Of a stretch of DNA of 64,000 bases, positions 1,009-64,000 are shown piece after piece. Below the pieces are notes generated by a model, which made no database searches, was not told the origin of the DNA, and saw nothing but the letters and a program-made list of their open reading frames with translations. Position numbers and translations under genes: made by a program. Every line of letters begins with the position of its first letter. Positions within the stretch are counted from its first letter, which is position 1. Source of the stretch: an uncultured Pirellulales bacterium (GTDB lineage: Bacteria > Planctomycetota > Planctomycetia > Pirellulales > Thermoguttaceae); assembly GCA_938015445.1 (NCBI GenBank), contig CALLPE010000007.1, forward strand, positions 1-64,000, in the 5' to 3' direction.

Positions 1009-1583
1009 AGCTCGACTACCCGTTACGCGTGGTTCACCTGGAGGAGGCAGAAGCGGCGATCCGCGACGCCGACCTGCTGCTGTATCGCCGCCGCGGGCTG
1101 ATCGCCATTGCTGGACGTGGCATCCACAGCCATTCGGCCAAGGCGGCCTGGTGGGACGGTCAGTTGTTCTGCTTGGAGGTACGCGGACTGTGCGGCGGCA
1201 GGGCGGTCACACTGGCCAGCCAAGTGGCCCGTTATCCAGGCCGCATCGACGTGTATCGGGCCAATCCCGGCAACCGGTGGCGGCACTACGACCGCCGGGG
1301 GGCGGTATCCTTCATGCGACAACTGTGCGGATGCGAATACGGCTACGTGGCCTTGCTGAAAGCTGCTCTGCTACACCTGCCGGTGATACGGCTGTTAGTC
1401 AGGCCGGCACTGAACGACCGGGCACCCCCGGTGATGCCGCCTTTTTGCAGCCAGGCGTGCGTGATGGCCGATCGGTTGGGCGGGGGTGTCGACCCGGTGC
1501 CTCACCTGGCCGACCGGCTGACAGAACCGGCCGACCTGGCCCGCAGCCCGTTTTATCAATACCGCTTCACGCTCATCCCATGA
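1005..1583 (+). CDS. Permuted papain-like (YiiX/NlpC-type) amidase
   Basis: The 192-residue protein has the circularly permuted papain arrangement seen in YiiX-type and NlpC/P60-related enzymes. A histidine segment comes first (GIHSHSAKAAWW, His41/His43). A beta-rich core follows, with the conserved V-x-x-Y-R context around residue 85. The nucleophile comes late in FCSQAC (Cys148). Family members hydrolyse amide or ester bonds in peptidoglycan or lipids. The start is the GTG at 1005, overlapping the preceding stop; the ORF's stop overlaps an ATG at 1580. In a phage-derived cluster a role in lysis or entry is plausible but inferred. No signal peptide is visible. Confidence 0.6.
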   Translation: MKLDYPLRVVHLEEAEAAIRDADLLLYRRRGLIAIAGRGIHSHSAKAAWWDGQLFCLEVRGLCGGRAVTLASQVARYPGRIDVYRANPGNRWRHYDRRGAVSFMRQLCGCEYGYVALLKAALLHLPVIRLLVRPALNDRAPPVMPPFCSQACVMADRLGGGVDPVPHLADRLTEPADLARSPFYQYRFTLIP

Positions 1584-62248: not shown

Positions 62249-63409
62249 CTACTGCACCGCCGCCGAAGCGTTCTGCGGCTTGCGCACGGTCAACAGCGCG
62301 GGTCGGCCTTGAGCGTCCTGATGCCGCTGAACCGTACCGGCCGATGAACCGTCCCGTTCCCCCTGCGTCTGGTCACCGGCGTCGTCGGCGATGCTGCGTC
62401 CCACAGCGGCGGCCACGCCCCGGCACAAGTGCATCATCTGGCGGAACTGGTCGAAATCCAGCGACTGATTGCCGTCGCACAGGGCCGCATCGGGGTGGGG
62501 ATGCACTTCCACCATCAGCCCATCGGCACCGGCCGCAACCGCCGCTGCCGCCATCGGCGCTACCAGGCTTCTTTCGCCCGTTCCATGGCTCGGGTCCACA
62601 ATCACCGGCAGATGAGTCCGCTCGTGCAGCCAGGGAACAGAGGCCAGGGCGAGCGTGAACCGCGTATGGGACTCGAAAGTGCGAATGCCCCGCTCGCACA
62701 ATATCACCTGCTCGTTACCGGTCCTCAGCACGTACTCGGCCGCCAGCAACAGTTCGTCCAACGTGGCCGATGGCCCGCGCTTCAGCAACAGCGGCTTGCC
62801 CGACGCTCCGGCTTCTTCCAGCAAGCGGTAGTTCTGCATGTTGCGGGCGCCGATTTGGAGCACGTCGGCATATCGGATCACCAGCGGCAGGTCTTCGATG
62901 GCCAGCACTTCGGTGACCACGGCCAGGCCGGTTTGCTTTCGCGCAGCCGCCAGGACGCGCAGTCCTTCTTCCTTCAGCCCTTGAAAGCAATACGGACTGG
63001 TGCGCGGCTTGAACGCGCCGCCCCGCAATCCTGTTGCCCCCGCCGCCCTGACCGCTTCGGCAGTGGCCAGCGTTTGCCGCTGGTTCTCCACGGCGCACGG
63101 GCCGGCGATGACCGCGAGCCGGTCGCCGCCCACTGCCAGACTACCGGCGCGGACCACCGTCGTTTGCCCCTTGATGTGCCGGCTGGCCAGCTTGTACGGC
63201 GTGGATACCTGTACCGTGCGAGCGACGTAAGGTTGGCCGGCCAATTGCTGCTGGTGTTCTGGTGCAACGTTGCCCACCACCACCACGACCGCCTGTCGCC
63301 ACAGGCGAACTGACGCCGTCCTGTAACCAAACGACTCCGCAAGCTCCACAAGCCGATCAATCACTTCGGTCTTCCCCTTCGGTTCCATGATCACAACTAG
63401 GTCAGCCAT
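62249..63409 (-). CDS. aroF: DAHP synthase, type I-beta with N-terminal regulatory domain
   Basis: The 386-residue enzyme condenses PEP and erythrose-4-phosphate, the first step of aromatic amino acid synthesis. An N-terminal ferredoxin/ACT-like regulatory domain (about 1-75) precedes the barrel, as in the Thermotoga maritima enzyme, where it mediates Tyr/Phe inhibition. Metal ligands are visible: Cys105 (IAGPCAVE), His275 (VDPSHGTG), Glu301 (VEVHPHP) and Asp312 ([10 protein letters not shown]). PEP-binding [12 protein letters not shown] and [10 protein letters not shown] are intact. There is a 45-residue C-terminal extension of low complexity. ATG 63409 fits the family start. A leader peptide attenuator lies upstream. 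Confidence 0.95.
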
Positions 63410-63752
63410 GGCAGGTCTCCGATGGATTAGGAAGGTCAGTAAGGCGGGCCAGAACCGGGCGCACTGCCCCCATTGCGGCGAGCTTGGTTCGAAACTGTTT
63501 ACCAACGGTCAACTGTCTACCAGCAGTCGACGAATACCGCCTTCCAAAGGCTGGCAAATACCGCGGCGGCCAGCCCAACGCGGCGTTGTGTTTCTGGTGG
63601 GGCCGAAACGAAGTGGGCGAAATCTTAGCTGGTTTCTTCATTGTCCTACTATCCGATGTGTAAAGCAATCTTTCCGAGCTTGATCGAGCGGCCATGTGCA
63701 TGGTCGAGTTCCGATCGCTAGTGCGCATGCAAGTCGCCAAGTGAACAAGAAC
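63410..63752. other. Long untranslated leader between attenuator and aroF
   Basis: About 340 bases on the minus-strand transcript between the attenuator terminator and the aroF start. A 112-codon frame overlaps it but shows no family sequence. Its length leaves room for further control, a second promoter, or a second structure; none was recognised. Confidence 0.4.
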
Positions 63753-63790
63753 AAAAAAAGCCCCGAGAACCTTCAGAGGCCTCGGGGCTT
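63753..63790 (-). terminator. Intrinsic terminator of the aroF attenuator
   Basis: On the minus strand AAGCCCCGAG (63790-63781) reads through CCACAAGCCCCGAGG and pairs perfectly over ten bases with CTCGGGGCTT (63767-63758) across a 13-base loop. Seven T residues (63759-63753) follow. It lies between the leader peptide stop and the aroF start, so would stop aroF transcription when formed. Confidence 0.88.
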
Positions 63791-63823
63791 GTGGATTTCT
63801 CCAAGACGGCTGTCAGCGGTGGA

Positions 63824-63901
63824 CTACGGACCGCCTCCTGCCCCGCGACCTCGGGGGCTAAAGTAAAACCAGTAATAATAGGCGGTCCGCAGAATGTTCA
63901 T
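63824..63901 (-). CDS. Aromatic leader peptide of the aroF attenuator
   Basis: Twenty-five codons, ATG at 63901-63899 and TAG at 63826-63824. The peptide begins MNILRTA, continues with seven aromatic residues YYYWFYF (codons TAT TAT TAC TGG TTT TAC TTT) and ends SPRGRGAGGGP. A run of Tyr, Trp and Phe codons just before a terminator and the DAHP synthase gene is the hallmark of an attenuator leader and senses all three charged aromatic tRNAs. No strong RBS is visible, as for many genes here. Promoter-to-start distance is about 37 bases. Confidence 0.88.
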   Translation of the reverse strand: MNILRTAYYYWFYFSPRGRGAGGGP

Positions 63902-63944
63902 CTGGATACCGTTTGCACTCTGCTGTGCTGCCAACTACACCACT

Positions 63945-63973
63945 ATTATCTCATAATTTCGACCTTTTGGCAA
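63945..63973 (-). promoter_or_regulatory. Sigma-70 type promoter of the aroF leader
   Basis: On the minus strand TTGCCA (-35; 63973-63968) and GATAAT (-10; 63950-63945) are 17 bases apart, close to consensus in sequence and spacing. The predicted transcript would start near 63938 and meet the leader peptide ATG about 37 bases later. Confidence 0.7.
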
Positions 63974-64000
63974 CAGAAACCACAGGAAAAAAACATCTCG

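Follow-up and report, generated by a model that had tools for sequence, protein, structure and literature searches.

A probable ribosome-mediated attenuator with mixed aromatic codons upstream of a type I-beta DAHP synthase gene in Planctomycetota

Does the short open reading frame upstream of the DAHP synthase gene in an uncultured Pirellulales bacterium, with its unbroken series of aromatic codons, belong to an element that senses the products of the pathway? In the present study, this question was considered for a stretch of 64,000 nucleotides (the window; positions 1 to 64,000 of contig CALLPE010000007.1, assembly GCA_938015445.1) and for related genomes. The element is very probably a ribosome-mediated transcription attenuator of the trp/phe type, predicted from its sequence to control the DAHP synthase gene (aroF). 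Its observed parts comprise clustered codons for the amino acids that the pathway produces, a terminator, an antiterminator, a 1:2 hairpin, and a gene of the sensed pathway (Table 1).

Several of these parts had been described in an earlier note on the same DNA, and most of the description was confirmed. The promoter TTGCCA-17-GATAAT was located on the minus strand and is the only promoter-like site on that strand within 63300-64000, where shuffled sequences yield 0.3 sites on both strands together. The 25-codon leader ORF with seven consecutive aromatic codons is also present, with the codons reading MNILRTA-YYYWFYF-SPRGRGAGGGP. Its ATG has no obvious Shine-Dalgarno sequence upstream, and an in-frame TTG at 63934 is also possible as the start. 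Apart from YYYWFYF, the six frames of the 64 kb window contain no run of at least five aromatic codons, and runs of at least seven occur 0.005 times per shuffled window. A perfect 10-bp terminator stem followed by seven T residues had also been described; the seven T residues stand, but the stem reaches 10 bp only when two A-T pairs formed with the first two residues of the T7 tract are counted, and otherwise comprises 8 bp followed by T7. The stem obtained using RNAfold has 14 bp with one bulge, and the segment from the stop codon to the T run, including the terminator, folds with -28.8 kcal/mol. The assignment of the next gene on the same strand to DAHP synthase was borne out by matches to PF00793 and to the NCBIfam model for 3-deoxy-7-phosphoheptulonate synthase above its cut-off, and the nearest solved structures include 1rzm and 1vr6. 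The N-terminal domain of this enzyme would add feedback on its activity. The genome containing the window (88% complete) encodes one DAHP synthase of this type; a second PF00793 match shares 34% identity with aroF and probably represents a KDO8P synthase, and no type II DAHP synthase was found in this 88% of the genome.

Table 1. Positions of the features of the putative aroF attenuator in the window and of a putative second attenuator elsewhere in the same genome.
Feature	Position	Strand	Remarks
Sigma-70-like promoter TTGCCA-17-GATAAT	63945..63973	-	-35 TTGCCA 63973-63968, spacer 17, -10 GATAAT 63950-63945
Leader peptide ORF MNILRTAYYYWFYFSPRGRGAGGGP	63824..63901	-	ATG 63901, stop TAG 63826-63824, 25 codons; ORF homologs in 31 further loci of alignment A1
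Regulatory codons TAT TAT TAC TGG TTT TAC TTT (YYYWFYF)	63860..63880	-	F, W and Y here in 26/32 aligned leaders
Region 1 (shielding arm) CTGCGGACCGCCT	63880..63892	-	Pairs with region 2b, 13 bp
Region 2a (antiterminator 5' arm) AGGTCGCGGGGC	63840..63851	-	Pairs with region 3; covariation
Region 2b AGGCGGTCCGTAG	63824..63836	-	Pairs with region 1
Region 3 GCCCCGAGGCCT	63777..63788	-	Terminator 5' arm and antiterminator 3' arm; covariation
Intrinsic terminator hairpin (regions 3:4) and T7	63753..63790	-	Arms AAGCCCCGAG/CTCGGGGCTT 63790-63758, T7 63759-63753
aroF, type I-beta DAHP synthase with N-terminal ferredoxin-like regulatory domain	62249..63409	-	ATG 63409; PF00793 and PF18152
Ile leader, L206 (G000:C37)	From locus position 1313; terminator about 1435-1470		Strong 1:2 stem

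The arrangement is conserved among relatives. Genomes from the family and order of the bacterium carry a matching arrangement upstream of aroF, and under a rule requiring an ORF with at least five aromatic codons in eight and a strong hairpin with a T run at most 130 nt away, leader and terminator were detected in 22 of 27 order relatives. The same rule gave no match in 742 controls (0/27 on the other strand, 0/310 elsewhere in the same loci, and 0/405 in dinucleotide shuffles), and because of this difference, chance is excluded as the origin of the arrangement as judged from the compared sequences. The 32 aligned leaders contain a mean of 6.6 aromatic codons per 12-codon stretch, and Phe, Tyr, and Trp codons occur together in 26 of these leaders. 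A comparison of aroF upstream regions across related planctomycetes had been suggested as a check, and in this comparison the aromatic codons, the terminator, and the antiterminator, a part absent from the earlier note, are all kept, with compensatory changes. No leader was detectable in four loci of the same family or order (L009, L012, L022, and L025); a hairpin kept while the aromatic codons are lost, named beforehand as speaking against attenuation, did not emerge as a pattern, and the few relatives with no detectable leader mostly show no terminator either.

These observations bear on an alternative explanation, in which the hairpin serves only to end transcription or to stabilise RNA, the short ORF is decoration, and the aroF promoter lies further down. 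The gap between the terminator and aroF, at approximately 345 nt, exceeds that of most relatives and is large enough to harbor a second, hidden promoter; however, no minus-strand promoter-like site was seen in this gap. The ORFs beyond the promoter, recognised by eye as P-II-like and GlnD-like, point away from the leader, and therefore no other transcript needs this terminator. As the short ORF, aromatic codons, and antiterminator are moreover conserved jointly, a plain terminator is extremely improbable.

Further evidence for attenuation concerns the alternative RNA arms. The terminator 5' arm GCCCCGAGACC is complementary to the leader codons GGU CGC GGG GC(C), and 90.9% of the antiterminator cells in the 32 aligned leaders of A1 contain standard pairs. 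The covariation of the antiterminator was 0.233, compared with a mean of 0.169 in shuffles (0/500 reach the native score), and that of the terminator was 0.282, compared with 0.153 (0/500); the antiterminator pairing collapses in every slid register. RNAalifold recovered the terminator alone from the whole alignment because a single structure cannot show both alternatives, and the two sets of pairs were therefore counted separately, each as a named structure. When the partners of the 2:3 arms were swapped between species, the energy changed from -20.6 (native) to -18.4 kcal/mol in A1, and from -13.6 to -11.4 kcal/mol in 36 further leaders outside A1, which had no part in the discovery of this pairing; the 1:2 arms changed from -20.0 to -16.5 kcal/mol (0/10000 permutations in each comparison). 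Examples of the antiterminator in relatives include GGUUGCGGGGC with GCCCUGCAACC in L010, GGAUCAC with GUGAUCC in L038, and GUCGCGGGGC with GCCCCGCGAC in L026. Region 1 sits at or just before the aromatic codons, and its partner is the second half of region 2, as in the pairing of CUGCGGACCGCCU with AGGCGGUCCGUAG in the window; the distance from stop codon to hairpin is 16-44 nt in the further leaders. The antiterminator is predicted to exclude the terminator, and this prediction is backed by compensatory change across genomes.

Within the order, the leader tail SPxGRGAGGG shows striking conservation, and ribosomes can be slowed by tails rich in Pro and Gly; both points would fit a nascent peptide that arrests the ribosome making it, as TnaC and SecM do, with an aromatic metabolite as the cue. 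However, the third positions of the tail codons, GRGAG included, are about as fixed as the first and second positions, and beyond the order the tail has a very different sequence (PSRAEDSV, GPGPGQTV, or QPGRRGAA), whereas the complementarity to the terminator arm persists. For these two reasons, the conserved GRGAG codons are, on the evidence of the alignments, selected as RNA in the antiterminator arm and not as peptide. Leaders of like design before leuA and cimA hold Leu or Ile runs, which is expected for codon sensing and also argues against peptide arrest, an explanation that we consider very unlikely.

The expected effect of translation was modelled by folding RNA that ends just after region 3 with the ribosome footprint masked. 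In the window, the free RNA formed 0.1 antiterminator pairs, 8.9-11.0 pairs were obtained whichever of the seven aromatic codons the ribosome stalled at, and a ribosome at the stop codon gave 4.8 pairs, about half of the full number. Region 2a follows the last aromatic codon at a distance of three codons, which is about the reach of a stalled ribosome. Thus, in this model the window shows trp-type behaviour. More antiterminator pairs were formed with a stalled ribosome than with a ribosome at the stop codon in 29 of the 32 leaders, and more than in the free RNA ending after region 3 in only 15, so that the clarity of the shielding hairpin varies among the leaders; the 1:2 hairpin has 13 bp in the window and is weaker in some relatives.

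We infer that the leader is translated, responds to charged tRNA, and acts as a three-way (OR) sensor, the last because a stall at any aromatic codon gives an equal outcome in the model. In the proposed mechanism, transcription would start from TTGCCA/GATAAT, and a ribosome would trail RNA polymerase through the leader ORF. When Phe-, Tyr-, or Trp-tRNA is short, the ribosome would stall in YYYWFYF and block the pairing of region 1, leaving region 2a (codons GRGA) free to pair with region 3 ahead of the synthesis of region 4; the terminator would then not form, and aroF would be transcribed. When all three amino acids are plentiful, the ribosome would reach the stop codon and partly cover region 2, such that regions 3 and 4 pair and transcription ends. 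If translation does not occur, the 1:2 hairpin would hide region 2a, and the terminator would form. A role in translational reinitiation was ruled out, as the leader stop and the aroF start are approximately 415 nt apart.

Aromatic amino acids might also be sensed without translation of the ORF, through a metabolite riboswitch, a T-box, or a protein-bound leader. Such controls act on aromatic genes in other phyla, where T-boxes and TRAP/TyrR-type controls are known. The comparison with Rfam leaders, another check suggested earlier, revealed no known leader family, with no match at the gathering threshold in nine relative loci and only sub-threshold chance sRNA hits in the window. Moreover, the codons and mutually exclusive arms explain the conserved parts, and sensing of this kind has hardly any probability beside ribosome-mediated attenuation.

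The start of the leader mRNA might differ among relatives. In most order relatives outside the family of the window's bacterium, only 6-7 nt separate a promoter-like TTGNNN-16/17-(-10 hexamer) box from the leader ATG, and a promoter score of at least 7 was obtained for 34 of 69 leaders compared with 17 of 1950 control start codons, an excess that stands although several starts were tried per leader and the control thus understates chance several-fold. This result suggests that transcription begins at or beside the leader ATG in those relatives, yielding a leaderless mRNA. The spacing of 6-7 nt can be seen, for example, in the A1 loci L026, L029, L034, and L038 and also in L104. The -10 box in the window ends approximately 43 nt upstream of the ATG, and approximately 36 nt at the 5' end of this leader appear to be untranslated. 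The trpL leader mRNA of Sinorhizobium meliloti also starts at the AUG (PMC7298713), as would those of many relatives with the -10 box 6-7 nt before the ATG; unlike the present leaders, trpL has Trp codons only and belongs to an alphaproteobacterium, and the window's leader seems to be untranslated over its first 36 nt or so.

A covariance model of the leaders was run over 392 genomes of the phylum, and its full-length matches elsewhere in the phylum were inspected. Aromatic leaders are present within the class of the bacterium and, outside it, in several families, though not in all; in many other planctomycete families, the regions upstream of aroF showed no leader on inspection. Most partial matches, covering only model positions of about 90-141, resemble plain terminators and were left uncounted. 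An aromatic leader precedes a type I-alpha DAHP synthase in L067 and L190 (TIGR00034 above cut-off), and the downstream DAHP synthases in L066, L189, and L191 are similar to type I-alpha by eye. In L072, an FFFF leader precedes a chorismate mutase/prephenate dehydratase fused to DAHP synthase, with an open reading frame 684 aa long. Among 84,980 species scanned for the pattern, two convincing cases lay outside the phylum: MQKPNFSFFWFYFNPQGSD with a terminator before a DAHP synthase in Candidatus Caenarcanales (L087/L182), and MTFSKNYFWFYFTPPGGGSLVE with a terminator upstream of pheS in a Levyibacteriota genome (L098). Other global matches, in membrane proteins or long ORFs (L083, L085, L092, L101, L102, and others), were attributed to chance.

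The mechanism is of a known kind. The E. coli pheL-pheA, pheM-pheST, and trpL-trpE systems show the same order of promoter, leader ORF containing regulatory codons, regions 1-4, terminator, and structural gene, with mutually exclusive 2:3 and 3:4 hairpins; in contrast to what is proposed here, each of them responds to a single aromatic amino acid, and the controlled gene serves a terminal branch or encodes a synthetase rather than the enzyme of the commitment step. Codons for several end products occur in the enterobacterial ilvGMEDA (Ile, Leu, and Val) and thr (Thr and Ile) leaders, which resemble the present leader in this respect but serve another pathway. The earlier note was aware of no such element for a type I-beta DAHP synthase or in planctomycetes; no earlier report of either was found, but attenuation of a DAHP synthase gene as such is known from Corynebacterium glutamicum aroR/aroF, for which experimental evidence is summarised in PMC11802643, citing Neshat et al. 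2014. As described there, aroR resembles the present element in its aromatic-codon leader peptide and ribosome-mediated attenuation before DAHP synthase; it differs in belonging to an actinobacterium and in its Phe-Tyr-Phe codons, the description in PMC11802643 mentioning no Trp, whereas the planctomycete leader has about seven codons of three kinds and precedes a type I-beta enzyme with a regulatory domain in another phylum. According to the same description, aroR, with Phe and Tyr codons, responds to the limitation of Phe and not of Tyr (PMC11802643); for this reason, the sensing of all three aromatic amino acids is put forward here conditionally. The E. coli DAHP synthase genes aroF and aroH are under the TyrR and TrpR repressors (PMC11802643). 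An actinobacterial survey reported no element for phenylalanine or tyrosine operons (PMC1262725), a survey of premature terminators mentions neither planctomycetes nor DAHP synthase (PMC2965389), and a survey of leader genes including planctomycetes concerns reinitiation and not attenuation of this kind (PMC4833913). An aromatic leader with all three amino acids had no counterpart in the searched literature. As far as the openly readable literature and the families were searched, and with priority not certain, what appears to be new is a mixed Phe/Tyr/Trp run placed at the commitment step, its association with a type I-beta enzyme, and its occurrence in this phylum.

The element would extend the best-known RNA-based control to a phylum for which no earlier report was found, and would show a single leader monitoring all three aromatic amino acids at the first step of the pathway, for which E. 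coli relies on three isozymes together with two repressors. The element also offers a test of transcription-translation coupling in planctomycetes, because attenuation requires a ribosome close behind RNA polymerase and the internal membranes of planctomycete cells are unusual.

Similar leaders were observed for other amino acids. The genome containing the window has an Ile-rich leader MKSLAVNPFARALNAAIGIAGIIIIAD with a terminator before citramalate synthase (L206), by its sequence a second attenuator in this genome; the leuA gene of the same genome has no such leader element. We consider it fairly probable that attenuation is general for amino-acid biosynthesis in Planctomycetota (Phe/Tyr/Trp for aroF, Leu for leuA, and Ile for citramalate synthase) and that the aroF leader is a three-input OR sensor, often on a leaderless mRNA. 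In other planctomycetes, Leu-rich leaders (e.g. MNQNLLLLQLLLITPGC) with a terminator precede leuA in L183, L185, L186, and L199, and an Ile/Val-rich leader MPNTLINVGSQIGPITIVRIVVPGRCGLG with a terminator precedes citramalate synthase in L197 and L198; the genes downstream of the leaders in L186, L197, and L199 are named by NCBIfam.
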